Assembly: GCA_026745465.1 (NCBI GenBank)
Contig: JACYXH010000317.1
Location: forward strand, 20,001-84,000
DNA length: 64,000 nt
Direction of reading: 5' to 3'
Origin: Lota lota
Taxonomy: Eukaryota; Chordata; Actinopteri; Gadiformes; Lotidae
The notes under the pieces were generated by a model. That model searched no databases. It was not told where the DNA came from and was given only the letters and a program-made list of their open reading frames with translations. The first letter of the stretch is position 1, and every line of letters starts with the position of its first letter. Shown in pieces: positions 4,604-55,200 of this stretch. The translations under genes and the position numbers were made by a program.

Positions 4604-7272
4604 GACTGATCATGGGATCTGCATCACCTCGGACAAGGCGAAAGTAAAAGGTCGAGGCATGTTTTTCGTAGTGCACAAGAAACAAGACGTACGTGGCACG
4701 CGTAAAACATAATTTATTCTAAATTCGGGGAAGAGGGCAGGGAAGACCTCAAAACACTTACAATGCCCTTTTGTCTTTTCATACACACACACACTGTGGA
4801 CCGTCTCACACGAGAGGAATATATGTTTTGAATTTTGATTCCATAACGCATCTGCACACAAAAGGCACAACACACTCACACTCGTCTCAGACTGTTATCA
4901 CGTAGGGGGAGTTCACAGGGGATCTAAGGGTTTCACATTTGCACCTCAAACAATTATTTTCATCATCTCCGTGAAAGTAGGTCTACATCTCTTGTCCAGC
5001 CTTTCCTGCCTGTTTGCGATAGATAGAATCATCTCCTTTTGCATCACGATCTCACAACGCTTTTTGTTTCACCATTTGAAGAGAGATTCAAAACACTAGT
5101 GTAAACAAGATTCTCATATTTCCGTTTCTCCTCGGACTGAAGGTGCTTCGGCTGCATGTGCAAAACACAAATGAGCACAGTGTGGATCTTAACGGGTACA
5201 CTGCAGTGCCGGAAACGGTCCTCAATCTCGAGGATGACCATGGAATCAGCACAGGAAAGCCATTTGAGATTGCATCAGGTATCAAGGTCAAAATGGCGCT
5301 GCAATCTGATTATATCTATACTTTCATGATAGTGGGTGATGATAGGGATATTATGATATGTCATTAAATATGAATGGAGTTTTGGTTTTTACATATCATG
5401 ATGATTTGAGGTGTATTAGGGAATTCCACATTTTCTTTCTAATTATTTACTGATTCACAAGATGATTGCATTCACAACTGCTTCTCTCCTATAGGAAAAA
5501 AGTGTGAAATCCGGTTGCGTTGTCGTTTTCCCCAGCCGGATGTGTTCTGTGCCATGCTGGTCTTCCAGTTCAACTCAAAATATAGTGCATTCGAAATTGA
5601 CTGTCCTGTAGAAGTCAGCTACAAAAGCAAGTTGGTGGTAGAGCTAGGCAAATACAAAAAGAAAAAGCCGTGCAGTAAAAACCACTCTCACAGGTACATG
5701 ACTAGGATCCTTTTGTTTTGAAAAACAACACATAAGCAAATGCCATATTTAGCCCTCATGTATGATATGAATGCATATACACTAACAGCACATAGAGGCT
5801 ACTACAGATGCAATGGGTTAATGGACACAAAGCATCTGTATTAGTCAAAATGTTAAAATTTCTCTAACTTGTACTTCTTCCTACTAGAACCGGTTTGAAG
5901 TCTGTGATTCCGTTAAAGACATACATATTACCTGCTGACATGAAAAGTGTCATAAGAAATCTCAATGATGGTGGCTCATCATCAGAGGAAAAGTAAGTTT
6001 ATAAAATATGTTTCAATTGAAATCAATGAAATCAACCATATATCGGTCAAGCATTAGTGACAAGGAAAGCCTAGGGGGTGCGTTTGGAATTTGTTATTTG
6101 ATCTTGTGTCATAATAATCTCTGTTTTAAAATTGAATTTATAGAAAAATGCTGTTACTCAACTGTTTTATTCATCGTAATTTTTTTAGGTCCTTGCTGGA
6201 AACAACGCTTGGAATGCAGGAGTATGCCAAGAGGTTTAACTTACTGCTGAATCTGGAGGAGTACGCATGCATGAAGAAATCCCTTAATGAGGATGAGGCA
6301 CAGCTAGACGTTAGGAAAAGGTGAGAACCCACCATTTATTTACCTACCAAATTCAACCGTGTGCATTTGTTGTAGTCATGTCACAAAACGAAAAAGAATT
6401 AAAACTCGAAAGGTTCCGAGTTCGATCCTTGACCAAGATCCCTCACTTCTACCTGCTTCTTAAAATAGCATGTTTCTGTGTTCATGTCATTCCTGTAAGT
6501 TGCTATGGAATGAAGCATCTGCTAAATGACTAAATATTAAATAGTAAAATAGAGATTTAGAGCAGAAACATACGTAATCTGCATTATTATTGTTGTCATG
6601 ACCTTTTTTATGAACTCACTTGCTTGTTATTAGGGTGTCTGAGTGAGAATTATATTTATGTTGAATCTATCTATGTCTATGTGTCACCATCAGCCGCCTT
6701 ACCCTGCGTATCCAGCACAGGGCGGTGGAGCTGGCGAGTACAAATGGCTTGGAGAAGGTGCTGTTCCCGACTGCGACCAGCCACACGCCCAACCACACCA
6801 CACCGATGGAACTCAGGTCTGAGTCTCACAAATCAGACTTTATATGAAAAGTCCAAAAGTCCAAAATCGGACAGCAAACAAGCTTAATCTGGGCGAACGG
6901 ACCGACCTTTGCTTACAAAATTTGACCGATCATGTTGCTCCAGGTTGTAACAGCGAAAACACAAACTCGGCCAGCAATTGCAAATGTTTCCCGGTGGGAA
7001 GATAAGCTAACACATCCTATATCAACAAGCTAACCGTAGTGAGACGGGCAAGGGTAAGGTAGCAGGCAGGTAGTCAGGCAGTTAAGGGCCTGGCAATGGG
7101 CAGGCAGGCAGGCAGGAAGGCAGTTAAGGGCCTGGCAATGGGCAGGCAGGCAGGCAGGCAGGCAGTTAAGGGCCTGGCAATGGGCGGGCAGGCAGGCAGG
7201 CAGGCAGTTAAGGGCCTGGCAATGGGCGGGCAGGCAGGCAGGCAGGCAGTTAAGGGCCTGGCAATGGGCGGG

Positions 7273-7321
<49 letters not shown>

Positions 7322-10300
7322 AATCCGGTGGACAGAGAGGTTGAGTAAACAACGAAGTAGCGCCGGCTGCTAGGAAAACCACGGCTGAAATAGAGAGTGT
7401 TGATTGGGGATTGCTGGCAGGTTGGGGATTGCCGGCAGGTGTGTGTGGGAGTGTGTGTGGAGGGTGGCTGGTTTAAGCAGCCTCACCTGGCCCGAGTCAG
7501 ACTGATTGGACTCTGGGGCTGGGTGAGGCTGCACACCTGTTGCACATTGAGCAATCAGTGTGCACAGGTTAAACCAGCCACCACCACACACACTCGAGGA
7601 GAGCTCTCCGGCATGGCAGCATGGAGCACCATCTGCATGTCTCATTCCATTCAACCTTAACAATAAACCGGTTTTCAACATCACCACCCTGTGTTCATTG
7701 GTTTGGAGGAGCCCGAGGAAAGTCACCTAGGTGGAGTATGGGAGCCACCTAGGTGGCGTGTAGTATGGACATTGCTACAGTGTGTAAACAGAAAGGCACG
7801 TGGAGAAGTGGCAGCCAGCGACCGCTAGGTGATGGAAGTGGACGGCTTGACAGTAAATGGCGTGACAGTACCCCCCCCCCTCTAAGGACGCCTCCAGGCG
7901 GACGCCCAGCGCTGGACGGGCATTGACGATGGAAGTCCCGGATAAGCGAGGCGTCCAAGATGCGACTCCGAGGAACCCAGGAACGCTTGTACGGACCGTA
8001 GCCCTCCCAGTTCACAAGATACTGGTGTCCCCGGCCGCAACGACGCACGTCCAGGAGGCGGCGGACCGTCCACGCTGGGTGGTTATCAATGAGCCTGGGC
8101 GGAGCCGGAGCAGGGGGGGACAGCGTGGACATGGGCTTGACCCTGAGAGACATGAAAGGTAGGGTGCACACGAAGGGACGAAGGGAATCTTAGACGGACG
8201 GCACAGGGGTTGACGATGGACTCGATTTCAAAGGGGCCGATGAAAAGGGGAGAGAGTTTCTGGGTGACCCCCTTCAAGGGAAGGGGGTCTGAAGCCAAAC
8301 CCTTTGCCCGGGGGAGTACTGTGGGGCCGGTAGACTGTGCTTGTTTGCTTGCCACTGGGAGCGGGAGGATGCACGGAGCAGCGCAATGCTTCCAGGTGCG
8401 CTGACTCCGGCGCAGGCTGGCCTGAATGGAGGAAACAGTAATCTCCGCCTCCAAGGCAGGGAACAGGGGCGGCTGGTACCCCAACGAGCACATGAAAGGG
8501 GACAGACCAGTGGACGCATTCACGAGGGTGTTGTGAATGTATTCTACCCAGGGGAGTTGAGTGCTCCAGGAGGATGGGTTAGCATTTGTGACGCAGCGGA
8601 GCACGGCCTCCATCTCCTGGTTTGCCCGCTTCGACTGTCTGTCGGACTGGGGGTGGTATCCCGAGGAGAGACTGACTGTGGCGCCCAGGGCTGCACAGAA
8701 CACATGCCAGACCTAGGAGATGAACTGGGGGCCCCGGTCTGATATTATATCCACCGGGATGCCATGTAGGCGGAACACGTGGTGGACTATGAGGTCCGCA
8801 GTCTCCCTGGCTGAGGGAAGCGCTAGGATGTGGGCGGCATTGGAAAAACGGTTGACGGCCGTGAGGATGGTGGTATTTCCCTCGGATGGGGGGAGCCCGG
8901 TGACGAAGTCCAAGGCGATATGTGACCACGGGCGACTGGGGATAGGCAGGGGCCGGAGCAGGCAGGAACGGGGTCGGGTGGAGGACTTGTTGCGGACGCA
9001 GGTTGAGCACGCCGCGATAAACGAACAGACGCCCGCGTCCACGATAGGCGAGAAGGCCACTCAGCCACTGCGGAAACCTTGGCTGGGTCCATCCTCTTCT
9101 CCCCCTGACCAATGATGTACCCCAGGAAGGAGATGGAAGGGACATGGAATTTGCATTTCTTTGCCTTGACGTACAGCTTGTTCTCGAGCAGGCGCTGAAG
9201 AACCTGCCGTACATGAGACTTGTGCTCCTCCAGTGACTTCGAGAAAATCAGGATGTCGTCCAAGTACACAAACACGGTGTGGTTCAACATGTCCTGGAGG
9301 ACGTCGTTAACCAGGGCCTGGAAAACAGCGGGGGCATTGGTGAGTCCAAAGGGCATGACTAGAGGTACTCAAAGTGGCCCAGGGGGGTGTTGAAAGCGGT
9401 CTTCCACTCATCCCCCTCACGGATGCGGACCAGGTGGTAAGCGTTGCGTAGATCCAGTTTGGAGAATGCCGTGGCTCCGTGGAGGGGAACGAAGGCGGAG
9501 CTGATGAGGGGTAAGGGGTACTTGTTCTTGACAGTGATGTTGTTTAGGCCACGGTAGTCAATGCAAGGGCGGAGGGAGCGGTCCTTCTTGCTCACGGAAA
9601 AGAAACCCGCCCCTATCGGGGAGGACGACGGGCGGATGAGTCCAGCGGCAAGGGTTTCCAGGATGTACTCCTCCATGGACTCTCGTTCGGGACGGGAGAG
9701 ATTATAAAGGCGACTGCTTGGCAGGGGGGCTCCGGGAAGAAGGTCTATGGCACAGTCGTAAGGGCGGTGAGGAGGCAGAGATAGGGCGTGGGTCTTGCTG
9801 AAAACCTCCTCCAAGTCGTGGTACACCTCCAGTATGGAGGACAGGTCGGGGGGCGCAGACGTGTTCTTGGACTCCGAGACACGGGGAGATTGAGCGGAAC
9901 GCAGGCAATGGGAATGGCAAAACAGACTCCATGAGGTTACCCTACCGGACCCCCAGTTGATCTGGGGATTGTGAGTCTGGAACCACGGGTACCCCAGGAC
10001 TACCGGGGTAAATGGACAGTCTATCACGTGGAGGGATAGGGACTCGTGGTGATTCCCAGAAATCAATAATTTGACAGGGACCATCCGGCACTCCACACTG
10101 ACTTTTATTAGTGTCTTTTATTCTCCCCTCGGGCGCACGCGAGAGAGAGAGGCTTCGGAGAGCGCGTGCCCGATTTGGCCCATGGGACTCGCGCTCTCGG
10201 GTCCTCCAGGCATGAGACACGTTGTTGCAAAGTAAATAACTCGTGGCTGGCTCGATAAAAGGCTAAGACAAATGGATATCCATGGTTGGATTATTTCATA

Positions 10301-13300
10301 TGCTGAAACACATAAAAGACGTAGTTTCAAAGGTAACTCCACACCGGGCAGAGTTCTTAAAGAACAAGCGAGCTGAACAGAAGGAGGGAAGCCCTTGTGT
10401 AGAGTGGAGCAACCCACGTTTAAGAAGTGACACTAGATAGCGCCATTTACCATCTATAACTGGTTCAATGCACATTTAAAGCCAGACCCCCGGTCGTAAA
10501 AATTGAGGGCGCCACTATAGCGGGTACAACCTACGGTCACTCGGTCGTAGCTCAACAGTTATAGCGCCACCTATTATTTTTGGCAGGTACAACGTACGGT
10601 CAAGAGAAGATATGCAGTCAAGAACAGACCCAATGTTTATGGAGAGGGGCTTGCTCAAGATGTTCTCACATGATAACAGAAGGGAGGATAACATGCAGCT
10701 GGTAGATAGTTAAAGGCTACTATGGTATGCACAACGAAATGGAGTAGTTAAAACGAGCTGACCACGGCTATTGGGGCTCGGGCCCTGCCCATACTTTCCT
10801 CCGGACCATACCATGGGTATTAAATTTTTTCTCACAGAGGCAGGGGTTCGGCGACGGGCAGTAAGGTTAGAGAGAGAGGTTGAGTAAACAACGAACTAGC
10901 GCCGGCTGCTAGGAAAACCACGGCTGAAATAGAGAGTGTTGATTGGGGATTGCCGGCAGTTGAGTAAACAGAGAGGCACGTGGAGAAGTGGCAGCCGGCG
11001 CCCGCTAGGTGGTGGAAGTGGACGGCTTGACGGTAGACGGCGTGACAGCAAATAGATTTCACTTCGCTAGAATATCCATAACGAAACAGGAAACAAGGCG
11101 TAAGCCGGGAATAGCCTAAAACGGGCTCATACAGAGGCAGGCGCAGTCAGCTCGAAACAGATATTCTCACAGCGCATTTCACTTACTAGTAGATTTTAAA
11201 TCGTACCTACAGCACCTTTAATGATCATAGTTTTATTGATTATTAAAACAGCTTTTCACAGCTTTACTAATCAAGACCTTTTATTTTAAAGTCTGTTCGA
11301 CAAAACTCTGAACGAAGAGCAGTCCAAGGCTGTGCATCACATTGTCGCTGGATCCTCTAAACCAGCTCCTTACCTGGTGTTTGGACCACCTGGCACAGGT
11401 ACGCTGCAGCTGTGTGCCCGCCCATGTGAATCCTGAATCATATGTTCATCGTAATGATTGAGTAATATAGTAATTAATAATACATCAAAGTGTGATCTTT
11501 GCATGCGATGTGCGCAGGCAAAACAGTCACTTTGGTGGAAGCCATTAAGCAGGTCGAGAAGACCCAGGCTTCCAGCCACATCCTGGCCTGTGCCCACACC
11601 AACTCTGCCGCTGACCTGCTCTGTGCAAAGATTAGGAACCATAAAGTTTACCGCCTGTACGCCAAAAGCCAGGAAGGAAACATAAACCCAAAACACCCGG
11701 TAGGGCCTTTTCTTTATTCACACCTAATGTCCTTGAATTTAAATCAAAATGATATATTAAATTGCAATGCAAAGACATTGATGACTGTATGTATGTGTGT
11801 GTATGTGTGTGTGTGTGCGCGCGCAGTTCAAATGTAACTGGGGAGAGGACGGCATCTATTTCCCCAATAAAGAAGAGCTGAAGAAGCATAAAATCATGGT
11901 CACCACCCTTTTCACCGCTTCAAGGTACCTATACTACTCCACACAACAGCATATTTCATCCTTTGGGCCGGCTTCAGTAACAACAATCCTCTATAAGCCT
12001 TTTTAATAACATGAGATGATTGTTCTCCATAGGATTTATACGTGTTCTCTCTGTCTCTCCCTAGGCTGGTTACGGGAGGCATCACTCCAGGCTTTTACAC
12101 CCATATCTTTGTTGACGAGGCAGGACAACCGCCAGAGCCTGAAGGAGTCATCCCTTTGGCAGGTGGAAAACAAGCCAGGGTTTATCAGATACATGATGGA
12201 GTGTGTGTGTCGTTCTCTCCACACACAGTTATGCTACATTTTCTTAATGTTTTTGTTATGTGAAAAGGCCTACTGGACCCAGAGCGTGGCCAGGTGGTGT
12301 TGGCAGGAGACCCCAATCAGTCGTGCCCCTTCATCTCATCCCACCTAGCCAAGAAGCACGGACTGGGTGAGATCCCTCATTCTATTATTTTAAAAGGTTT
12401 CAATACAGGAGTATTTGTAAACATCAGTTTCAGTACATCTGTGACTCAGAACATTCGTTTCTGGACAGGTATGACTCAGAACATTGGTGTGACTCACACA
12501 TAGGTGTGTCTGTGTACATAAACAGTGTAACCCTGGTGTCTGCAGAGAGATCAAGTCTTGTTTCTTGCTTGAAGGCAGACTAAAATAAACTCAGTCGAGT
12601 TGTTTTATTTTAAATTCATTCATTCATTGTGCATCCAGAAGGGGAGTTTGCTAGGCAAGCATTTACTTTCCGTTAGCCACTTCCATTGACTTGCAGAGGT
12701 ACAGCCTTGCTCCTGTTCATGTGAGGGGAATACACTCCAACATATACACACATACTGTTAAGGATTTGAACTAGGACCCAAACGCAAGACACGGAGACCA
12801 GAAGGGAGCGGGTTGAGAAAGGGATTTATTAACAGAGTTCAGGCAAGGGCTAGGCAGGCGGGTAGACAAGCAGGCAGGGGTCGTTAGCAGGCGGGCGGCA
12901 GCGGGCAACGAGGACGTAGGCAGGCGGAGAGTCAAGCAGGCGGGGATCGGCAACGAGGAGGGTCAGCAAGCTGGAACTAGGAACTAGGAACGGGAACGAG
13001 GAACAGGAAGGGGAGCGGAACCCGAAACAGGAACAACAGGAGCGGGAGCAAGGGAGAAAACAGAGACTAAAAGGCGGGGACGAAGTTACCATGTGAGGTG
13101 AACAACGAACTAGCCCTGGCTTTGTGAGAAGCCAGTGCTTAAGTACTGTGGGGGGTGATTGGTGATGAGCTGCAGGTGTGGGTAGACAGAGGGAGTGCAC
13201 GTGGTTAATTGACGACGGGAGGTAAACAAAAGCACTTGGTGTAATCGAGGCTGGGTGCCACTAGATGGCGGGGTTTGACAGAAACGGGCGAGGGTGTGAC

Positions 13301-16300
13301 ACATACACATGCTGAGTTCAAATACATTTTGACTCTGCACACGCCTTTGTGACCACTGTCGTGGATAAAACACAACACGTTAACAAACTAAGAGAGGTCG
13401 AGAAAGCCGCAGTTTGAAAGATAAAGACTTTATTATCACTTGCACACAAGTAACTACAAAACCAGAGTTGATTCGCAAAGAACGCCTAGGCTTCAGGTTA
13501 TATTCCCAACATGTGTGGATTCCTCTTACATGCACTGGCCAATCACAACACCCTATGCATCGGGCCGAGAAATTGGGCACCTCCCGTGTCCCCCACCGCA
13601 GTTCCCCGTTAACTGAACATACACATATCCAACCTTCTCTGGATTTTCAGTAAATGACTACGTAAAGAATTGATATCCTGATTGAAATCCACTTGTCACC
13701 TTATTAATTAAACTGATATAAAACAAACATAATACACCACATGTGCTTATGAGAGGAAACCATCTCTGGCTTGAGGTAGTTTGGATGTGTGACAAACACA
13801 ATCCTGAATAAAGTAGCGACGTATAATCAAAGAAAACCAATCCCTATACCACATACTGTATATGGGTTAACCTAAAGATGTGACATGCATGAGCACAATG
13901 ACAATCACTTCTACTCAGACAATAAGCATGCATTCAAACAATTTACAACAACACCACTGAATGTGATTGTGGAATACATTCATAAAGCAGGCAGTGTTTG
14001 ACTTTGACTGTAGTATTCACCAGTTAACCTTAACGTCAGTATACGTGAAGTAAGAGAAAGAATGCAGGGGGCTTCTTCTATTTTCTTAGTGGTCCTCATA
14101 GAGCCCTCCCTGTCTCTTCCTCAGGATGACGTGAGCCAGGTATAGTGATGTTGACAGCTATTTAGGGGCCAACTTGGAATCAGCTGAGTAACCGGGGTTC
14201 ATCTCAGGGGCGACAGAATGTCCCTGGGAATGTAGGCCTTCGCTGACTGTGCTTTTTCCAAACTTATTTCCTTTATTTGGGCCAGATAATGGCTTCCTTT
14301 AAGCATATGGTAAATTCATTCAAACGGCAATGTTTAACTTTGACTGTGACTTTAATTAGTAAGCCTTAACATGTAGAAAGAATGCAGTGGGCTCCCTTCT
14401 TCTTTATGGCCCTCATAAAGCCCTCCCCGTCTTTTGCTGTCAGGATGAGGTGAGCCAGATATAGCGGGTTTATAGTTTTAGGGATCCACTTGAAGTCTGC
14501 TAGGTAACCAGGGTTCATCTCAGAGGGCTGTCAGGAGGTGTGATGAGTGTCACGTGGATTTCCCTCGGAATGTGGTCCGTCAGTGACTCTGTGCTTTTTT
14601 CCACACTGATTTCAGTCGTGTAGGCAAGATATTGCTTACTTCCTTTAAACCTCAGTCAATTTCTCCCATACCATTTCTCCTTTTTGGTGGAATTTGTGAC
14701 CTTTTTATAAACAGAAATATTTACTATTATTATAATTATTATTAATTGGTAATTATCTTTTTCACTTCTCTAAACTGCTGGTTTAGATGTGTGTTAGTTG
14801 TTCATACTATTACTGATTAGACATGGAAATTCCAAACTGGTTGCAAGATTTTATTATTGAATACCTCAAACCTATCGGGTGTCTTGTCATTTAAAAAAAA
14901 AGCATTAAAACACTATGACCACACTAGTGAATGTAAGAAGGGAATAACGACAAGAAGGGACCAAGACGCTTCACGTCTTGGTCCTCTTACTCGTTGGTTG
15001 TGTCTTCCTCGACTTCCTCGTCCTCAGGTATTATGACTGTTTCAGCTCCTTGGGGTGACCTTTGAACCCCAGCAGCCACTCCACCCTGCGACCAGTGTCC
15101 TTGCTGAGCACCTCACAAGCGGATGCAGCAGGGCCTGAGTTGTATGGAGAAACCTTTTTTTCCCCGGGATTACGAGTGTTGACCTTGATCCCCAACCCGA
15201 GACACTCTTTACAGGTTTATCACTCAAAGTCACTTTCCGTTTCAGCACAGGTGTATCACTTAACATCCCTCTCTGTGCAGGTGTATCACTTAACATCCCT
15301 CTCTGTGCAGGTGTATCACTTAACATCCCTCTCTGTACAGGTGTATCACTTAACATCCCTCTCTGTGCAGGTGTATCACTTCACATCCCTCTCTGTGCAG
15401 GTGTATCACTTCACATCCCTCTCTGTGCAGGTGTATCACTTAACATCCCTCTCTGTGCAGGTGTATCACTTAACATCCCTCTCTGTGCAGGTGTATCACT
15501 TAACATCCCTCTCTGTACAGGTGTATCACTTAACATCCCTCTCTGTACAGGTGTATCACTTAACATCCCTCTCTGGGCAGGTGTATCACTTAACATCCCT
15601 CTCTGTACAGGTGTATCACTTAACATCCCTCTCTGTACAGGTGTATCACTTAACATCCCTCTCTGTACAGGTGTATCACTTAACATCCCTCTCTGTGCAG
15701 GTGTATCACTTAACATCCCTCGCTGTGCAGGTGTATCACTTAACATCCCTCTCTGTACAGGTGTATCACTTAACATCCCTCTCTGTGCAGGTGTATCACT
15801 TAACATCCCTCTCTGTACAGGTGTATCACTTAACATCCCTCTCTGTACAGGTGTATCACTTAACATCCCTCTCTGTACAGGTGTATCACTTAACATCCCT
15901 CTCTGTACATGTGTATCACTTAACATCCCTCTCTGTACAGGTGTATCACTTCACATCCCTCTCTGTGCAGGTGTATCACTGCTGAAGCGTCTGATGGAGT
16001 TGAATGTGTACAAAAAGGATGAGAAAAAGGGGTACAATGACCGATTCATCACCAAGCTGCCGAGGAGCTACAGGTGTGACGATGCCATTCCGAATACATC
16101 TACAACATATTTACATCTCGAGTGTAGTTTTAAATATCTCTGTTCGCCCAATGGCTACTGTTTTATACAGCCTTTTTTAAATGTTTCATTTTCTTTGCTC
16201 TGCTAAACGTCAGGTCTCATGGCAACTTTCTAATGATCTCAAACGATGTCTGCAACGAGGTGTGCGCTGGTCCGGACATCCGCAACTCCTTATGCGAATG

Positions 16301-17553
16301 GAAGCACCTTCCCAACAAGGTGAAGACTGCACACACACATGGAGCGCAGAATAACAGGCTGCTCTTTGTATGTCTTAAACGACATACAAATACATACAAA
16401 TGTCTTTGTAAGTCTTAAATTCACTGTTCTCTCCCTCTCGCTCATCTGCTCACAAGGGATTCCCGCTGATCTTCCATGAAGTCACTGGACGTATGCAACG
16501 TGAGGACAGCACCTCATTCTTCAATGCATACGAAGTGGACATTCTAATGCTGTACCTGAAAGAATTGTTGGTCGATGTCCCCCCAGGAGACATAGGCCTC
16601 ATTGCCCCATACAGGAAACAAGTAGGTACCAACTGTGCCTTACAGCAATGCACATCAAACTTGCCAACTCACTAGTTCTTCACAAGGATAAAGGCGACAC
16701 CATTCTATGGGTTTGTTTTTGCCATCGTCCCAATTGAAACAATCATGTTGGTGTCCCTCATAGGTGGAGAAGATCAACACAGCGGTTAAGATCACGTTCC
16801 GCAGATGCATGGCAGAGTTAAAGGTAAAACGTGGCGGTGGATTTTTCTTTTCTCCCCACTCCTCTGCCATATACCTTTCTACTTATTAAATACGTTGGTG
16901 GACTGTTTCCAATCCGTCATCGGCCGGCATCTTGATCTCAGGTTGGCACCGTGGAAGAGTTCCAGGGCGTGAGGAAGCGGGTGATTCTGCTGTCCACAGT
17001 GAGAAGCAGCAGCCGGGGCCACAGCTCGTTCCTTGCTGACCCCAAGGTGAGCGGACCCTCTGCTTTTCCACCCATCTTCCTCAATTCACTCACGGCAACG
17101 TTGTCTTCGCGTCGTTTCTGTGACTATTCTATTCTTTTCCTGTTTCTCCCCAGAGGTTCGACATGGCCATGACCCAAGCCCAATCCCTGGTAATAGTGGC
17201 GGGGAACTCACAAGCGCTGACAAACAACGACATCTGGCACAAGTGAGAAGAAGATAAAAACGTGTATCTGTGCAGATCAATGGAGCCCCAGTGTCAGCTC
17301 CTCCGTTTTGGGACTCAGTGACTCTGTGGCCTCCTGCTGGTTATTTTGTGTTGCTGTCCACCATGTGCCTGCTTCTGTTGTGCCCCTGGCTCCGCCCCTC
17401 ACCTGTACACCCTGCCATTGTCTGTTTCCCGCCCTTCTTCCTGCTCACCTGTTTGTCATTGTGCTAATCACTCAACCTATTTATGTCCTGTGTTTTCAGT
17501 GCCATGTTGTCTGATTGTTCTTCTGTTTGCTCTTAGCTTAACTAGTCAGTTCA

Positions 17554-17645
<92 letters not shown>

Positions 17646-17980
17646 TATTCCTGCTGTTTTTTGGATTTGCCTACGGTTTTGACCTTTGCCTGCCCCATTA
17701 CTGCTCCTGACCTGGATCTTTTCTTTGTTTGGATTTTTTGTGTTTTTGCATTCCTCCTGAGAAACAGGAGTTATTTTTTGTTATTAATTGAGCTGAAGCC
17801 TTGCCCTGCCTCAAATAAATATTTTGGACTTAACTGTTTTTGGGTTCGTATTTTGCACAATCCTGACACCTTAGAGGATTGTTAGACTGATGGTCATTTC
17901 TCTGCTCTCTCCGTAGGTTCATCGAGTACTGTAAAGAAAACGGAGGTTACACCAAGACCTTCCAAGGACTTGACATATAG
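4604..17980 (+). CDS. mov10: MOV10-family RNA helicase paralogue, divergent (copy 1)
   Basis: UPF1-like superfamily 1 helicase-related protein; family members act in cytoplasmic RNP granules with Argonaute and in retroelement and virus restriction. Exons by reading frame, splice sites and comparison with copy 2: 4604-4688, 5143-5278, 5495-5693, 5888-5992, 6189-6320, 6694-6816, 11292-11398, 11518-11699, 11827-11924, 12065-12162, 12268-12366, 15971-16073, 16214-16319, 16457-16621, 16764-16823, 16942-17046, 17154-17242, 17917-17980. All phases match, no internal stop, about 684 codons. Walker A GPPGTGKT and DEAG are intact. Motif III is GDPNQSCPF (GDPKQLGP in copy 2), motif V is [10 protein letters not shown] (VEEFQGQER), motif VI is [10 protein letters not shown] (RFNVAVTRAK): the motif VI arginine is lost. 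About 75 residues of the 1B region, matching copy 2 exon 9 and its flanks, are absent, and the protein stops soon after NGGYT. The 5' exons are not identified. ATP hydrolysis is probably impaired (inference); the intact frame argues against a simple pseudogene. Confidence 0.82.
6385..6540 (+). mobile_element. SINE-like element
   Basis: A B-box-like GAGTTCGATCC near 6418 is followed about 80 bp later by GAAGCATCTGCTAAATGAC, the characteristic tail of many teleost tRNA-derived SINEs (GTAAGT..GCTNTGGA..GCNTCTGCTAAATG). The A box is degraded. It lies in the intron between the sixth and fifth recognised exons of MOV10 copy 1, where the missing 1B exon would be expected. Confidence 0.6.
7066..7322 (+). 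repeat. LTR-internal minisatellite and (GGCA)n tract
   Basis: About five copies of a roughly 40-bp unit containing GTTAAGGGCCTGGCAATGGG plus GGCAGGCA runs are followed by a pure (GGCA)n tract to 7322. The array lies inside the 3' LTR of the gypsy element. The poly-Pro-Ala-Cys-Leu and Gly-Arg-Gln frames here are repeat translations. Confidence 0.9.
7446..7779 (+). mobile_element. solo LTR, 334 bp (family A, copy 2), nested
   Basis: Starts TGGGAGTGTG and ends GCTACA, flanked by the 5-bp direct duplication GTGTG at 7441-7445 and 7780-7784. It interrupts the 3' LTR of the gypsy element: the sibling 5' LTR near 10955-10970 runs straight through the same site (GCCGGCAGTTGAGTAAACAG), which proves insertion after the gypsy element was in place. 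It carries AATAAACCGG, a likely LTR polyadenylation signal. The inverted copy is at 3591-3926. Confidence 0.85.
7749..8171 (-). pseudogene. gypsy integrase C-terminal chromodomain remnant
   Basis: The minus-strand reading contains [20 protein letters not shown], then NWEGYG and SWVPRSRIL, the conserved core of chromodomains at the C-terminus of chromovirus-type integrases, which direct insertion by binding modified histones. It is in a different frame from the upstream integrase (8086-8703), so at least one frameshift separates them. The last part of the open frame runs into the 3' LTR and is not protein sequence. Confidence 0.8.
8086..9060 (-). pseudogene. gypsy integrase core, interrupted
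   Basis: Two minus-strand segments, 9060-8713 and 8703-8086, encode an integrase catalytic core: [16 protein letters not shown] (first Asp), [11 protein letters not shown] (second Asp) and [18 protein letters not shown] (Glu). An in-frame TAG after QFIS separates the halves. Upstream, only [10 protein letters not shown] remains of the zinc-binding region. Further downstream is a GPFEIES block typical of the integrase C-terminal domain. Confidence 0.85.
8823..10096 (-). pseudogene. gypsy protease/reverse transcriptase, frameshifted
   Basis: Two overlapping-edge frames make one reverse transcriptase. The first (10096-9359) has a [17 protein letters not shown] protease-end block, [20 protein letters not shown] and [15 protein letters not shown], and stops after HFEYL. 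The second (9356 on) begins [13 protein letters not shown] and carries the catalytic YLDD at 9252-9266 and SFLGYIIG. A small indel at about 9357-9361 creates the break. After WPS near 9070 the frame runs into integrase sequence out of frame, marking deletion of RNase H. Confidence 0.9.
10100..10850. other. unexplained internal part of the gypsy element
   Basis: Between the pol fragment and the 5' LTR, where gag should lie, no gag, capsid or zinc-knuckle frame is visible. The sequence includes two TACAACNTACGGTCA blocks (near 10525 and 10590), each linked to a TATAGCGCCA motif, hinting at a small internal duplication or another inserted element. I do not recognise it. Confidence 0.4.
12756..13301 (-). 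mobile_element. solo LTR, 546 bp (family B, copy 1)
   Basis: Flanked by the perfect 5-bp duplication CATAC (12751-12755 and 13302-13306). On the minus strand it begins TGTCACACCCTCG and ends TTAACA, with an AATAAA signal (TTTATT near 12825) about 70 bp before the end. It is related along its length to the element at 21513-22257: both contain GGCGGGGACGAAG, AGCCAGTGCTTAAGTACTGT and GGGTGTGACA. No internal retrotransposon genes are present. It lies antisense in the intron between the motif III exon and the next exon of MOV10 copy 1. Confidence 0.88.
13380..13975. other. intronic DNA, unrecognised
   Basis: AT-rich intronic sequence of MOV10 copy 1. TTTATTATCA near 13430 would be an AATAAA signal on the minus strand, and the 13340-13640 part may be a further LTR fragment, but I could not find matching ends or a target duplication. 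No gene seen. Confidence 0.35.
13980..14640 (-). repeat. diverged direct duplication with antisense coding-like segments
   Basis: Two copies of about 300 bp, offset by roughly 340 bp, share TTTGACTTTGACTGT-type starts, AGAAAGAATGCAG, ACCNGGGTTCATCTCAG and GTGAGCCAG. Read on the minus strand, both copies give related peptides: [17 protein letters not shown] in one and [17 protein letters not shown] in the other, then MNPGY. One copy continues [20 protein letters not shown] to a stop; the other has early stops. This looks like a duplicated, decayed exon of a gene I do not recognise, in antisense orientation within a MOV10 intron. Confidence 0.5.
14975..15205 (-). pseudogene. antisense coding-like fragment
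   Basis: On the minus strand an uninterrupted frame reads through [16 protein letters not shown] and [16 protein letters not shown] to a stop near 15030. The neighbouring frame continues [16 protein letters not shown] to a stop near 14990. Together they resemble a protein C-terminus broken by one frameshift. Amino-acid composition and codon use look coding. The family is not recognised; it may belong with the decayed copies at 13980-14640. Confidence 0.35.
15215..15970 (+). repeat. 30-bp minisatellite made of splice acceptors
   Basis: Twenty-four tandem 30-bp units (15251-15970) are preceded by a degenerate 36-bp unit (15215-15250). Each unit starts GTGTATCACT, continues with TAACATCCCT and ends CTCTCTGTGCAG or CTCTCTGTACAG, i.e. 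a polypyrimidine tract plus acceptor AG. The last unit's AG is the acceptor of the MOV10 copy 1 exon at 15971, which itself begins GTGTATCACT. Unit length is a multiple of three, and the exon's frame stays open through the array, giving repeated [10 protein letters not shown] or close variants. One unit (15901-15910) has ACATG instead of ACAGG and lacks the AG. The 307-codon frame 15062-15985 is a different frame through the same repeat. Confidence 0.95.
17290..17875 (+). mobile_element. LTR-like insertion with (TGCC)n tract
   Basis: The last intron of MOV10 copy 1 contains CT-rich sequence with a (TGCC)n run at about 17555-17644, an AATAAA at about 17814-17819 and an end near CAATCCTGACA (17874). 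This resembles the layout of the solo LTRs elsewhere in the window, but I could not find matching 5-bp flanks. The Cys-Leu-Pro-Ala frame is a repeat translation. Confidence 0.4.
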
Positions 17981-18940: not shown

Positions 18941-33730
<14,790 letters not shown>

Positions 33731-46293: not shown

Positions 46294-49200
46294 TCTAACA
46301 GGGTAGCTGTGTTGTTAAACCTAACCGGGTAGCCGTGTTGTTAATCCTAACCGGGTAGCTGTGTTGTTAAACCTAACCGGGTAGCCGTGTTGTTAATCCT
46401 AACCGGGTAGCCGTGTTGTTAAACCTAACCGGGTACCTAACCGGGTAGCCGTGTTGTTAAACCTAATCATGTAGCCGTGTTGGTAAACCAAACCGGGTAG
46501 CTGTGTTGTTACACCTAACCGGGTAGCTGTGTTGTTAAACCTAACCGGGTAGCTGTGTTGTTAAACCTAACCGGGTACCTAACCGGGTAGCCGTGTTGTT
46601 AAACCTAATCATGTAGCCGTGTTGCTAAACCAAACCGGGTAGCTGTGTTGTTACACCTAACCGGGTAGCTGTGTTGTTAAACCTAACCGGGTAGCTGTGA
46701 TGTTAAACCTAACCGGGTAGCTGTGATGTTAAACCTAACCGGGTAGCTGTGTTGTTAAACCTAACCGCGTAGCTGTGTGGTTAAACCTAACCGGGCAGCT
46801 GTGTGGTTAATCCTAACCGTTTAGCTGTGTTGTTAAACCTGACCGGGTAGCTGTATTGTTAAACCTAATCGGGTAGCTGTGATGTTAAACCTAACCGGGT
46901 AGCTGTGTTGTTAAACCTAACCGGGTAGCTGTATTGTTAAACCTAACCGGGTAGCAGTGTTGCTAAACCTAACCGGGTAGCTGTGTTGTTAAACCTAACC
47001 GGGTACCTAACCGGGTAGTCGTGTTGTTAAACCTAACCGGGTAGCCGTGTTGCTAAACCAAACCGGGTATCTGTGTAGTTAAACCTAACCGGGTAGCTGT
47101 GTTGTTAAACCTAACCGGGTAGCTGTGTTGTTAAACCAAACCGGGTAGCTGTGATGTTAAACCTAACCGGGTAGTTGTGTTGTTTAACCTAACCGGGTAC
47201 CTAACCGGGTAGTCGTGTTGTTAAACCTAACCGGGTAGCCGTGTTGCTAAACCAAACCGGGTAGCTGTGTAGTTAAACCTAACCGGGTAGCTGTGTTGTT
47301 AAACCTAACCGCGTAGCTGTGTGGTTAAACCTAACCGGGCAGCTGTGTGGTTAATCCTAAACGTTTAGCTGTGTTGTTAAACCTGACCGGGTAGCTGTAT
47401 TGTTAAACCTAATGGGGTAGCTGTGATGTTAAACCTAACCGGGTAGCTGTGTTGTTAAACCTAACCGGGTAGCTGTATTGTTAAACCTAACCGGGTAGCA
47501 GTGTTGCTAAACCTAACCGGGTAGCTGTGTTGTTAAACCTAACCGGGTACCTAACCGGGTAGTCGTGTTGTTAAACCTAACCGGGTAGCCGTGTTGCTAA
47601 ACCAAACCTGGTAGCTGTGTAGTTAAACCTAACCGGGTAGCTGTGTTGTTAAACCTAACCGGGTAGCTGTGTTGTTAAACCTAACCAGGTAGCTGTGATG
47701 TTAAACCTAACCAGGTAGCTGTGTTGTTTAACCTAACCGGGTAGCTGTGTGGTTAAACCTAACCGGGCAGCTGTGTGGTTAATCCTAACCGTTTAGCTGT
47801 GTTGTTAAACCTAACCGGGTAGCTGTATTGTTAAACCTAACCGGGTAGCTGTGATGTTAAACCTAACCGGGTAGCTGTGATGTTAAACCTAACCGGGTAG
47901 CTGTGTTGTTAAACCTAACCGGGTAGCTGTGATGTTAAACCTAACCGGGTAGCTGTGTTGTTAAACCTAACCGGTTAGCTGTGTTGTAAAACCTAACCGG
48001 GTAGCCATGTTGCTAAACCAAACCGGGTAGCTGTTTTGTTAAACCTAACCGGGTACCTAACCGGGTAGCATTTTTGGTAAACCTAACCGGGTAGCCGTGT
48101 TGCTAAACCAAACCGGGTAGCTGTGTTGTTAAACCTAACCGGGTAGCAGTGTTGTTAAACCTAACCGGGTAGCTGTGTTGTTAAACCTAACCGGGTAGCT
48201 GTGTTGTTAAACCTAACCGGGTAGCTGTGTTGTTAAACCTAACCGGGTAGCTGTGTTGTTAAACCTAACCGGGTAGCTGTGTTGTTAAACCTAACCAGGT
48301 AGCCGTGTTGCTAAACCAAACCGGGTAGCTGTGTTGTTAAACCTAACCGGGTACCTAACCGGGTAGCCGTGTTGTTAAACCTAACCGGGTAGCCGTGTTG
48401 CTAAACCAAACCGGGTAGCCGTGTTGTTAAACCTAACCGGGTAGCCGTGTTGTTAAACCTAACCGGGTAGCCGTGTTGTTACACCTAAACAGGTAGCAGT
48501 GTTGTTAAATCTAACAGGGTAGCCGTGTTGTTTAACCTAACCGGGCAGCTGTGTTGGTAATGCTAACCGGGTAGCTGTGTTATTAAACATAACCGTGTAG
48601 CTGTGTTGTTAAACCTAACCGGGTAGCTGTGATGTTAAACCTAACCGGGTAGCTGTGTTGTTAAACCTAACCGGGTAGCTGTGTGGTTAAACCTAACCGG
48701 GCAGCTGTGTGGTTAATCCTAACCATTTAGCTGTGTTGTTAAACCTGACCGGGTAGCTGTATTGTTAAACCTAACCGGGTAGCTGTGATGTTAAACCTAA
48801 CCGGGTAGCTGTGTTGTTAAACCTAACTGGGTAGCTGTATTGTTAAACCTAACCGGGTAGCAGTGTTGCTAAACCTAAACAGGTAGCTGTGTTGTTAAAC
48901 CTAACCGGGTACCTAACCGGGTAGTCGTGTTGTTAAACCTAACCGGGTAGCCGTGTTGCTAAACAAAACCGGGTAGCTGTGTAGTTAATCCTAACCGTTT
49001 AGCTGTGTTGTTAAACCTGAACGGGTAGCTGTATTGTTAAACCTAACCGGGTAGCTGTGATGTTAAACCTAACCGGGTAGCTGTGTTGTTAAACCTAACC
49101 GGGTAGCTGTATTGTTAAACCTAACCGGGTAGCAGTGTTGCTAAACCTAAACGGGTAGCTGTGTTATTAAACATAACCGTGTAGCTGTGTTGTTAAACCT

Positions 49201-52200
49201 AACCGGGTAGCTGTGATGTTAAACCTAACCGGGTAGCTGTGTTGTTTAACCTAACCGGGTAGCTGTGTGGTTAAACCTAACCGGGCAGCTGTGTGGTTAA
49301 TCCTAACCGTTTAGCTGTGTTGTTAAACCTAATCGGGTAGCTGTGATGTTAAACCTAACCGGGTAGCTGTGTTGTTAAACCTAACCGGGTAGCTGTATTG
49401 TTAAACCTAACCGGGTAGCAGTGTTGCTAAACCTAACCGGGTAGCTGTGTTGTTAAACCTAACCGGGTACCTAACCGGGTAGTCGTGTTGTTAAACCTAA
49501 CCGGGTAGCCGTGTTGCTAAACCAAACGGGGTATCTGTGTAGTTAAACCTAACCGGGTAGCTGTGTTGTTAAACCTAACCGGGTAGCTGTGTTGTTAAAC
49601 CTAACCGGGTAGCTGTGATGTTAAACCTAACCGGGTAGCTGTGTTGTTTAACCTAACCGGGTACCTAACCGGGTAGTCGTGTTGTTAAACCTAACCGGGT
49701 AGCCGTGTTGCTAAACCAAACCGGGTAGCTGTGTATTTAAACCTAACCGGGTAGCTGTGTTGTTAAACCTAACCGCGTAGCTGTGTTGTTAAACCTGACC
49801 GGGTAGCTGTGTTGTTAAACCTAATCGGGTAGCTGTGATGTTAAACCTAACCGGGTAGCTGTGTTGTTAAACCTAACCGGGTAGCTGTATTGTTAAACCT
49901 AACCGGGTAGCAGTGTTGCTAAACCTAACCGGGTAGCTGTGTTGTTAAACCTAACCGGGTACCTAACCGGGTAGTCGTGTTGTTAAACCTAACTGGGTAG
50001 CCGTGTTGCTAAACCAAACCGGGTAGCCGTGTTGTTAAACCTAACCGGGTAGCCGTGTTGTTAAACCTAACCGGGTAGCCGTGTTGTTACACCTAAACAG
50101 GTAGCAGTGTTGTTAAATCTAACAGGGTAGCCGTGTTGTTTAACCTAACCGGGCAGCTGTGTTGGTAATGCTAACCGGGAAGCTGTGTTATTAAACATAA
50201 CCGTGTAGCTGTGTTGTTAAACCTAACCGGGTAGCTGTGATGTTAAACCTAACCGGGTAGCTCTGTTGTTAAACCTAACCGGGTAGCTGTGTGGTTAAAC
50301 CTAACCGGGCAGCTGTGTGGTTAATCCTAACCGTTTAGCTGTGTTGTTAAACCTGACCGGGTAGCTGTATTGTTAAACCTAACCGGGTAGCTGTGATGTT
50401 AAACCTAACCGGGTAGCTGTGTTGTTAAACCTAACCGGGTAGCTGTATTGTTAAACCTAACCGGGTAGCAGTGTTGCTAAACCTAAACGGGTAGCTGTGT
50501 TATTAAACATAACCGTGTAGCTGTGTTGTTAAACCTAACCGGGTAGCTGTGATGTTAAACCTAACCGGGTAGCTGTGTTGTTTAACCTAACCGCGTAGCT
50601 GTGTGGTTAATCCTAACCGTTTAGCTGTGTTGTTAAACCTAATCGGGTAGCAGTGATGTTAAACCTAACCGGGTAGCTGTGTTGTTAAACCTAACCGGGT
50701 AGCTGTATTGTTAAACCTAACCGGGTAGCAGTGTTGCTAAACCTAACCGGGTAGCTGTGTTGTTAAACCTAACCGGGTACCTAACCGGGTAGTCGTGTTG
50801 TTAAACCTAACCGGGTAGCCGTGTTGCTAAACCAAACGGGGTATCTGTGTAGTTAAACCTAACCGGGTAGCTGTGTTGTTAAACCTAACCGGGTAGCTGT
50901 GTTGTTAAACCTAACCGGGTAGCTGTGATGTTAAACCTAACCGGGTAGCTGTGTTGTTTAACCTAACCGGGTACCTAACCGGGTAGTCGTGTTGTTAAAC
51001 CTAACCGGGTAGCCGTGTTGCTAAACCAAACCGGGTAGCTGTGTAGTTAAACCTAACCGGGTAGCTGTGTAGTTAAACCTAACCGGTTAGCTGTGTTGTA
51101 AAACCTAACCGGGTAGCCGTGTTGCTAAACCAAACCGGGTAGCTGTTTTGTTAAACCTAACCGGGTACCTAACCGGGTAGCAGTGTTGTTAAACCTAACC
51201 GGGTAGCCGTGTTGCTAAACCAAACCGGGTAGCTGTGTTGTTAAACCTAACCGGGTAGCAGTGTTGTTAAACCTAACCGGGTAGCTGTGTTGTTAAACCT
51301 AACCGGGTAGCTGTGTTGTTAAACCTAACCGGGTAGCTGTGTTGTAAAACCTAACCGGTTAGCCGTGTTGCTAAACCAAACCGGGTAGCTGTTTTGTTAA
51401 ACCTAACCGGGTACCTAACCGGGTAGCAGTGTTGTTAAACCTAACCGGGTAGCCGTGTTGCTAAACCAAACCGGGTAGCTGTGTTGTTAAACCTAACCGG
51501 GTAGCAGTGTTGTTAACCTAACCGGGTAGCTGTGTTGTTAAACCTAACCGGGTAGCTGTGTTGTTAAACCTAACCGGGTAGCTGTATTGTTAAACTTAAC
51601 CGGGTATGCAGTGTTGCTTAAACCTAAACGGGTAGCTGTGTTATTTAACATAAACCGTGTAGCTGTGTTGTTAAACCTAACCGGGTAGCTGTGATGTTAA
51701 AACCTAACCGGGTACGTAGCTGTGTTGTTTAACCTAACCGCGTAGCTGTGTGGTTAATCCTAACCGTTAGCTGTGTTGTTAAACCTAATCGGGTAGCAGT
51801 GATGTTAAACCTAACCGGGTAGCTGTGTTGTTAAACCTAACGGGTAGCTGTATTGTTAAACCTAACCGGGTAGCAGTGTGCTAAACCTAACCGGGTAGCT
51901 GTGTCTTGTTAAACCTAACCGGGTACCTAACGGGTAGTCGTGTTGTTAAACCTAACCCGGGTAGCCGTGTTGCTAAACCAAACGGGGTATCTGTGTAGTT
52001 AAACCTAACCGGGTAGCTGTGTTGTTAAACCTAACCGGGTAGCTGTGTTGTTAAATCTAACGGGTAGCTGTGATGTTAAACCTAACCGGGTAGCTGTGTT
52101 GTTTAACCTAACGGGTACCTAACCGGGTAGTGGTGTTGTTAAACCTAACCGGGTAGCCGTGTTGCTAAACCAAACCGGGTAGCTGTGTAGTTAAACCTAA

Positions 52201-55200
52201 CCGGGTAGCTGTGTTGTTAAACCTAACCGCGTAGTTGTGTGGTTAAACCTAACCGGGCAGCTGTGGTGTTAATCCTAACCGTTTAGCTGTGTTGTTAAAC
52301 CTGACCGGGTAGCTGTATTGTTAAACATAATCGGGTACCTGTGATGTTAAACCTAACCGGGTAGCTGTGTTGTTAAACCTAACCGGGTAGCTGTATTGTT
52401 AAACCTAACTGGGTAGCAGTGTTGCTAAACCTAACCGGGTAGCTGTGTTGTTAAACCTAACCGGGTACCTAACCGGGTAGTCGTGTTGTTAAACCTAACC
52501 GGGTAGCCGTGTTGCTAAACCAAACCGGGTAGCTGTGTAGTTAAACCTAACCGGGTAGCTGTGTTGTTAAACCTAACCGGGTAGCTGTGTTGTAAAACCT
52601 AACCGGGTAGCTGTGTTGTTAAACCTAACCGGGTAGCTGTGTTGTTAAACCTAACCGGGTAGCTGTGTGGTTAAACCTAACCGGGTAGCTGTGTGGTTAA
52701 TCCTAACCGTGTAGCTGTGTGGTTAAACCTAACCGGGTAGCTGTGTTGTTTAACGTAACCGGGTAGCTGTGTTGTTAAACCTAACTGGGTAGCTGTGATG
52801 TTAAACCTAACCGGGTAGCTGTGTTGTTAAACCTAACCGGTTAGCTGTGTTGTAAAACCTAACCGGGTAGCCGTGTTGCTAAACCAAACCGGGTAGCTGT
52901 TTTGTTAAACCTAACCGGGTACCTAACCGGGTAGCAGTGTTGGTAAACCTAACCGGGTAGCTGTGTTGTTAAACCTAACCGGGTAGCTGTGTGGTTAAAC
53001 CTAACCGGGTAGCTGTGTGGTTAATCCTAACCGTGTAGCTGTGTGGTTAAACCTAACCGGGTAGCTGTGTTGTTTAACCTAACCGGGTAGCTGTGTTGTT
53101 AAACCTAACCGGGTAGCTGTGATGTTAAACCTAACCGGGTAGCTGTGTTGTTAAACCTAACCGGTTAGCTGTGTTGTAAAACCTAACCGGGTAGCCGTGT
53201 TGCTAAACCAAACCGGGTAGCTGTGTTGTTAAACCTAACCAGGTAGCAGTGTTGCTAAACCAAACCGGGTAGCTGTGTTGTTAAACCTAACCGGGTACCT
53301 AACCGGGTAGTCGTGTTGTTAAACCTAACTGGGTAGCCGTGTTGCTAAACCAAACTGGGTAGCCGTGTTGTTAAACCTAACCGGGTAGCCGTGTTGTTAA
53401 ACCTAACCGGGTAGCCGTGTTGTTACACCTAAACAGGTAGCAGTGTTGTTAAATCTAACAGGGTAGCCGTGTTGTTTAACCTAACCGGGCAGCTGTGTTG
53501 GTAATGCTAACCGGGTAGCTGTGTTATTAAACATAACCGTGTAGCTGTGTTGTTAAACCTAACCGGGTAGCTGTGATGTTAAACCTAACCGGGTAGCTGT
53601 GTTGTTAAACCTAACCGGGTAGCTGTGTGGTTAAACCTAACCGGGCAGCTGTGTGGTTAATCCTAACCGTTTAGCTGTGTTGTTAAACCTGACCGGGTAG
53701 CTGTATTGTTAAACCTAACCGGGTAGCTGTGATGTTAAACCTAACCGGGTAGCTGTGTTGTTAAACCTAACTGGGTAGCTGTATTGTTAAACCTAACCGG
53801 GTAGCAGTGTTGCTAAACCTAAACAGGTAGCTGTGTTGTTAAACCTAACCGGGTACCTAACCGGGTAGTCGTGTTGTTAAACCTAACCGGGTAGCCGTGT
53901 TGCTAAACCAAACCGGGTAGCTGTGTAGTTAATCCTAACCGTTTAGCTGTGTTGTTAAACCTAACCGGGTAGCTGTATTGTTAAACCTAACCGGGTAGCT
54001 GTGATGTTAAACCTAACCGGGTAGCTGTGTTGTTAAACCTAACCGGGTAGCTGTATTGTTAAACCTAACCGGGTAGCTGTATTGTTAAACCTAACCGGGT
54101 AGCTGTGATGTTAAACCTAACCGGGTAGCTGTGTTGTTAAACCTAACCGGGTAGCTGTATTGTTAAACCTAACCGGGTAGCAGTGTTGCTAAACCTAACC
54201 GGGTAGCTGTGTTGTTAAACCTAACCGGGTATCTGTGTAGTTAAACCTAACCGGGTAGCTTTGTTGTTAAACCTAACCGGGTAGCTGTGTTGTTAAACCT
54301 AACCGGGTAGCTGTGATGTTAAACCTAACCGGTTAGCTGTGTTGTTTAACCTAACCGGGTACCTAACCGGGTAGTCGTGTTGTTAAACCTAACCGGGTAG
54401 CCGTGTTGCTAAACCAAACCGGGTAGCTGTGTAGTTAAACCTAACCGGGTAGCTGTGTTGTTAAACCTAACCGCGTAGTTGTGTGGTTAAACCTAACCGG
54501 GCAGCTGTGTGGTTAATCCTAACCGTTTAGCTGTGTTGTTAAACCTGACTGAGTAGCTGTATTGTTAACCCTAATCGGGTAGCTGTGATGTTAAACCTAA
54601 CCGGGTAGCTGTGTTGTTAAACCTAAGCGGGTAGCTGTATTGTTAAACCTAACCGGGTAGCAGTGTTGCTAAACCTAACCGGGTAGCTGTGTTGTTAAAC
54701 CTAACCGGGTACCTAACCGGGTAGTCGTGTTGTTAAACCTAACCGGGTAGCCGTGTTGCTAAACCAAACCGGGTAGCTGTGTAGTTAAACCTAACCGGGT
54801 AGCTGTGTTGTTAAACGTAACCGGGTAGCTGTGTTGTTAAACCTAACCAGGTAGCTGTGATGTTAAACCTAACCAGGTAGCTGTGTTGTTTAACCTAACC
54901 GGGTAGCTGTGTGGTTAAACCTAACCGGGCAGCTGTGTGGTTAAACCTAACCGGGCAGCTGTGTTGTTAAACCTAACCGGGTAGCTGTATTGTTAAACCT
55001 AACCGGGTAGCTGTGATGTTAAACCTAACCGGGTAGCTGTGTTGTTAAACCTAACCGGGTAGCTGTGTTGTTAAACCTAACCGGGTAGCTGTGTTGTTAA
55101 ACCTAACCGGGTAGCTGTGTTGTTAAACCTAACCGGGTAGCTGTGTTGTTAAACCTAACCGGGTAGCTGTGTGGTTAAACCTAACCGGGTAGCTGTGTGG

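Follow-up and report, generated by a model that had tools for sequence, protein, structure and literature searches.

A probable mirage-type minisatellite at an intron-exon boundary of a MOV10-like gene in Lota lota

A tandem array of 30-bp units in Lota lota repeats a segment that straddles an intron-exon boundary of a gadiform MOV10-B-like paralogue, with ~20 nt from the end of the intron joined to the first 10 nt of exon 12. This paralogue, copy 1, forms a tandem pair of MOV10-like genes with copy 2 in the window that we analyzed, a stretch of 64,000 nucleotides (C317:20001-84000 of the 575-Mb genome; positions below are those of the window, forward strand, unless a contig is given). Arrays of the same kind are present in copy 2 and at 2 of 260 sampled exon edges of the same genome. 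The copy 1 array displays boundary-spanning units, splice signals in many of the units, and homogenized inner units next to a divergent edge, as mirages do; it is a new, long case of this already known structure. We consider it likely that the array is a mirage-type minisatellite that is mostly treated as intron, with splicing directed for the most part to the exon-proximal acceptor at 15970.

The copy 1 gene and its array

The gene model of copy 1 (4604..17980) comprises 18 exons and is open as far as the stop codon, encoding 684 aa without the array; it starts at 4604, with 5' exons excluded. The exon preceding the array (12268..12366) encodes the motif III region, GDPNQSCP, and ends at the donor G|GTGAG. 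In its canonical form, exon 12 (15971..16073) measures 103 bp, and the usual MOV10 spacing is obtained with acceptor 15970; exon 13 follows at 16214..16319. Intron 11, which holds the array, is 3,604 nt long, and intron 12 only 140 nt. Two other features of the window were recorded. The region 7800-10800, in a long intron of copy 1, is GC-rich and has the look of a mobile element, and a 26-bp satellite with higher periods of 52 and 78 bp takes up the final 17.7 kb (46295-64000).

The array proper occupies 15251..15970. Each of its 24 tandem 30-bp units consists of the ten-nucleotide exon start GTGTATCACT, a branch-point-like TTAAC or TTCAC motif (present in 24/24 units), a pyrimidine tract and CAG, or CAT in a single case. 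TRF reported a period of 30 bp with 24.5 copies and a match of 97% over 15247-15980, and splitting at GTGTATCACT or GTTTATCACT to set the unit borders yielded a single 36-bp unit followed by 24 units, each exactly 30 bp long. The earlier note, which had described 24 such units with tract, CAG and ten exon bases, was thus borne out, as was its mention of one unit that has lost its AG: the unit at 15881..15910 ends in ACAT, while the other 23 keep CAG. The usual unit reads GTGTATCACT followed by T(A/C)ACATCCCTCTCTGT(A/G)CAG, with one further change in each of three units. Three unit types, at 11, 7 and 3 copies, account for 21 of the 24, and the rest are singletons of three further types; the order is irregular.

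At its upstream edge the array is preceded by a divergent 36-bp unit (15215..15250), GTTTATCACT...CAG, which carries an out-of-phase AG at 15245 and its final acceptor at 15250. The intron end before this unit, CTCTTTACAG (15205..15214), is identical to the intron end of the units at 9 of the last 10 nt (10 of the last 16), has a weak acceptor score of 0.6, and is perhaps the original copy of the acceptor. In a search of the genome, one assembly, all 11 DNA matches to the unit fell within C317:35236-35980, indicating a single locus. That only one assembly is available and that repeats are error-prone could point to an assembly artefact; the irregular succession of six different unit types, between intact flanking exons, makes such an origin extremely improbable.

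A duplication across the intron-exon boundary would have started the array, and unequal exchange or slippage, in a genome rich in minisatellites, would then have expanded and homogenized the units. By such a route, every added unit would automatically bring in a complete acceptor.

Reading frame, splice sites and expected splicing

The frame of exon 12 is open across the whole array including the 36-bp unit, as the earlier note had stated. The upstream stop lies at 15136, and the largest in-frame insert that the array could supply is 252 residues. The note's further claim that any upstream acceptor would add n x 10 residues in frame holds for 26 of the 27 AGs in 15214-15970 and fails for the edge unit's AG at 15245, which is out of phase and scores poorly (-2.4). 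The placement of the insert between helicase motifs III and IV was also right, for the Pfam match to AAA_12 begins at residue 455, which is the junction codon of exon 12, so that any insert would probably separate the two RecA-like domains. The same note had gone on to read the variable array as a series of splice isoforms, in which many acceptors would be used, whether in a regulated or a noisy manner, and alleles of different length would yield proteins with n x 10 additional residues. The start of AAA_12 at the insertion point would suit this reading, as would the 25 CAG|GT junctions of the array, which are all in one phase, so that any choice of acceptor, or of an internal donor and acceptor, among them keeps the frame. 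The insert itself argues against it: the array product is very hydrophobic (GRAVY 1.27 vs -0.35 for copy 1), and a protein search with the product alone returned 12 candidates, none with E <= 1. Among known protein repeats, a Pfam scan of the product gave two matches, both under the cut-off.

We considered the open frame as a sign of selection and rejected it. If the exon start and CAG are held fixed, some 74% of random 30-bp units are open, and with a factor of 1/3 for length the chance of an open, fitting unit is ~0.25; a 20 + 10 nt duplication would leave an open array at 13 of the 17 acceptors of copy 1. Nor could the unit variants serve as such a sign, since 5/5 kinds of change are non-synonymous but so are 62 of the 90 possible changes, which leaves the comparison with no power. 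Because other boundary arrays in the genome are not multiples of three in length, the in-frame property of the copy 1 array is probably luck, at about 1 in 4.

Splice-site strength was assessed with an acceptor matrix built from only 26 real sites of copies 1 and 2, the 27 real acceptors being scored leave-one-out. On this scale 23 of the 24 unit acceptors, the intact ones, scored 7.1-9.8, within the range of the real acceptors (-1.9 to 13.0), and two acceptor types rank in the top 1.9% and 3.3% of all AGs in the window, which again would suit a series of isoforms. The acceptor of the edge unit, 15250, lies upstream of all 24 units and has the top score of the array, 14.2, compared with 7.4 for the canonical 15970; by this 26-site matrix, strength alone would favor inclusion of the array, and nothing weighs more heavily against the use of 15970 than this score. 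Another strong acceptor-like site, scoring 13.8, was seen at 15028 in the same intron, ~190 bp before the array.

If splicing went to 15250 (or 15214), the whole array would become exonic and the protein would gain about 240-252 residues. The score of 15250 and the frame that is open throughout are in keeping with this outcome, which we nevertheless judge decidedly improbable. The exon would measure 823-859 nt, contrary to the preference of exon definition, and 111 of the 113 homologues with measurable spacing (among the best 120 of 773) have 56-62 residues at this place. A single-sequence AlphaFold2 run on the array product gave a repeated-strand model whose low confidence (mean pLDDT 60.7) led us to set it aside as structural evidence; so poor a model likewise speaks against an exonic array.

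With an upstream intron of 3.6 kb and a downstream intron of 140 nt, exon 12 belongs to the long/short class for which exon definition is expected, and acceptor 15970 is thereby favored. A transcriptome-wide study in human described exons with a long upstream and a short downstream intron as mimicking exon definition, with the 3' splice site nearest the donor being favored (PMC9225289); the same study found upstream 3' splice sites to be preferred overall, though less so under exon definition (PMC9225289). By this analogy, and in view of the sister arrays whose unit lengths are not multiples of three, exon-proximal splicing of exon 12 appears the likelier course. Exon definition would favor the acceptor nearest the exon 12 donor, 15970, and hence a normal protein, and leaky use of upstream acceptors may give rise to a minor ladder in steps of 30 nt, whose proteins would gain n x 10 hydrophobic residues at the start of the second RecA-like domain. 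Such leakage would leave the frame unharmed, as the unit happens to have a fitting length and phase.

The 25 CAG|GT junctions also make the array donor-like besides acceptor-like, a point absent from the earlier note. A recursive splice site is a 3' splice site with a strong donor directly after it, and the junctions might accordingly act as recursive sites, or parts of the array might be removed as new introns. CAG|GTGTAT has a donor score of 8.4, within the range of 26 real donors (-1.5 to 10.6, a small training set), and ranks in the top 2.4% of the GTs of the window. However, GTGTAT is without the G that is usual at position +5 of the donor consensus, and the minimum intron length exceeds the 30 nt of one unit, so that several units would have to be skipped. 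On balance we hold this possibility to be highly improbable, although repeats at human exon boundaries have been described as creating novel introns (PMC2812944).

Copy 1 among its homologues

Copy 1 was compared with the best 120 of 773 matching proteins, using a query that included two array units. The closest of these 120 is an unnamed protein product from Lota lota (474/529 residues identical, 29 gaps). Next come proteins from Gadus, Arctogadus and Boreogadus, of which two bear the name mov-10-B.1. None of the 120 contained the array insert, as judged from motif spacing in 113 and by reading the junction in seven. The distance from motif III to YRSH, measurable in 113, fell outside 56-62 residues in two, namely P0018 (74 residues) and P0017 (77 residues). 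Both are predicted fish MOV10 proteins with 16-19 additional residues, unrelated to the array, at the same exon junction; the additions may reflect either annotation that runs on into intron sequence or genuine splice variants. Short words of the array repeat occur in P0087 and P0092, elsewhere in the protein.

The homologues thus bear on the isoform series in two ways. The extra residues of P0017 and P0018 lend it some color, while the lack of the insert in all 120 (best 120 of 773) counts against it, as do the sister mirages in copy 2 and at locus L079, both of which break the frame. We therefore regard an isoform series as unlikely, and the statement that a VNTR here would also be a splice-isoform series found no support: the insert is missing from the listed homologues, the array-product search was empty, and the lengths of the sister arrays are not multiples of three.

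A different matter is whether copy 1 makes a working protein at all. It may be a pseudogene or hardly expressed, with the array as neutral debris, which we regard as somewhat unlikely. One motif of copy 1 has a form that is common only to the Lota protein among 114 matched homologues (of the best 120), and its motif V, EEFQGVRK, is again shared in the same form only by Lota among the best 120. In motif VI (17154-17242), copy 1 reads MAMTQAQ and the Lota protein MAMTRAQ; TR is found in 109/109 matched homologues, 11 of the 120 being unmatched, and the change to TQ would probably abolish helicase activity. The product of exon 13 is missing an LFY block that is present in 116 of the best 120 homologues (of 773) by a loose pattern, and the Lota protein is without most of exon 13. 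Furthermore, the MOV-10 beta-barrel domain was not detected by Pfam in copy 1, whose model begins at 4604; the domain is present in a pike protein and absent from the scanned Lota protein and one Gadus protein. Set against these points, all 18 exons are flanked by GT/AG sites and contain neither a stop nor a frameshift, and the MOV-10 Ig-like, helical and AAA_11/AAA_12 domains all score above the Pfam cut-offs. Conservation of helicase motifs III, V and VI does not extend to copy 1; copy 2 retains the usual helicase motifs. Judged from its sequence, copy 1 looks like a degenerate, decaying paralogue; it is a MOV10 paralogue by descent and probably does not work as a helicase.

Comparable arrays in the genome and in other animals

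An older mirage was found in copy 2 by repeat and sequence comparison at 26984..27181, where 76-bp units duplicate the acceptor of another exon (27182..27279). The 44 nt ending at the two AGs are identical, and the stretch past the upstream AG agrees with the start of the exon at 18/30 positions, compared with at most 14/30 among 26 other exon starts. Placements in the window that match at least as well made up a fraction of 0.015 for 20 nt, 6e-4 for 25, 4.3e-5 for 30 (~2 places), 0 for 32, 2e-4 for 35 and 2e-3 for 40; the length was chosen afterwards and the significance varies with the length taken. Splicing to the upstream acceptor, 27105, would add GR and then a stop, so a working copy 2 must use the exon-proximal acceptor.

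To gauge how often such arrays occur, we sought them across 260 edges of 130 exon matches, 90 of a kinase domain (30 + 60 of the remaining 111, out of 141) and 40 of 98 to Helicase_C. The sample was hand-picked, matches with stops were mostly skipped, and some matches are neighboring exons of one gene; match edges stand in for exon boundaries, and some of them are not true boundaries. An array was counted as spanning when it reached at least 8 nt into the match. Two of the 260 edges (95% interval 0.1-2.8%, a small sample) were spanned by a boundary repeat. The first, L079 (G000:C483:754058-755650, minus strand), is on the acceptor side of an exon that is presumably DYRK-like and has nine acceptors spaced 47 bp apart; the 14 nt with which the exon begins are repeated behind each of them. 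Its eight complete 47-bp units, in two types of 5 and 3, are not multiples of three and contain stops in all three frames, so that a working gene has to rely on the last acceptor. The second, L101 (G000:C409:1590796-1592247, minus strand), lies on the donor side of an exon that we take to be AKT-like, and consists of three copies of the last ~38 exon nt plus the donor at a spacing of 83 bp, likewise not a multiple of three. Each unit of L101 contains CCATCCAG|GT, and small exons could form.

Minisatellites with periods of at least 10 bp covered 7.6% of the sampled flanks, 1.1% of the sequence inside exon matches and 6.8% of the first 50 nt outside them. Given this load in the flanks and close to exons, boundary arrays are an expected by-product, with no excess. 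Dense tandem repeats have been described in cod and haddock (PMC5894186; PMC5241972). Two further candidates were set aside. L124 qualifies as spanning by the threshold, yet it proved to be a pyrimidine-rich tract that precedes an acceptor and has a period of 11 bp, rather than a copied boundary. L089, with two donor-like copies, extends into the match by only 6 nt and was left uncounted; it may be an old donor mirage. L046, L112, L118 and L134 are intronic minisatellites that start at or a few bases after a donor, without exon bases. L076, L080, L095, L105 and L144 were inspected and not counted, and L036, L070, L073, L075, L111, L128 and L136 were listed only.

The closest known counterparts are the lancelet mirages, described in Adh3, the globins BflGb6/9, troponin C and PGBD5 as AG/GT-bearing units in genes that give normal mRNAs (PMC3087553; PMC3902484). 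They share with the copy 1 array the boundary-spanning repeats, AG/GT in many units, homogenized units and edges excluded from the cluster (PMC3087553; PMC3902484). Their units number 6 or 3 of 150-160 bp in BflGb6 and measure 157 bp in BflGb9 and 10-72 bp in Adh3 (PMC3087553; PMC3902484), whereas the present array, in a fish, has 24 units of 30 bp and keeps the protein frame through a chance fit of length and phase. In human, internal tandem repeats at exon-intron boundaries, in genes of segmental duplications, have units of 30 bp on average and change splicing (PMC2812944). These resemble the copy 1 array in unit length and in their location in recent gene duplicates, but comprise 4 units on average and are backed by transcripts (PMC2812944), in contrast to the 24 units known here from DNA. 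NAGNAG tandem acceptors likewise offer an in-frame choice between neighboring acceptors (PMC3250501), at a spacing of 3 nt as opposed to 30 nt with a separate tract and branch-point-like motif in each unit. The lancelet and human cases supply counterpoints to the mirage reading of copy 1, in that normal splicing in lancelets concerns other genes and that boundary minisatellites in human alter splicing. We found no report of codfish boundary arrays of this kind in the openly licensed literature. Zhuo et al. 2007 reportedly described human introns derived from tandem arrays, in which direct repeats give both splice boundaries with much alternative splicing; such repeats yield introns, whereas the copy 1 array sits at an existing acceptor.

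With its 23 near-identical intact acceptors and its edge copies, the array represents a natural experiment in spliceosomal choice among equal 3' splice sites. Recurrence within one small sample suggests that the minisatellite-rich codfish genome may contain numerous loci of this type, both in-frame and frame-breaking, in which case the rule of 3' splice-site choice could be read from ordinary long-read cDNA; the copy 1 case would in addition illustrate, for a vertebrate, how new introns or coding repeats arise from repeats at exon boundaries. A bolder proposal, that codfish genomes harbor hundreds to thousands of mirages and that the copy 1 array has turned coding, its polymorphic repeat being read as graded n x 10-residue helicase isoforms, is speculative and quite improbable. 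As a side observation from the 98 Helicase_C matches, four of them, on C402, C490, C549 and C640, score the same, as if a helicase gene had multiplied recently or haplotypes had been kept apart.
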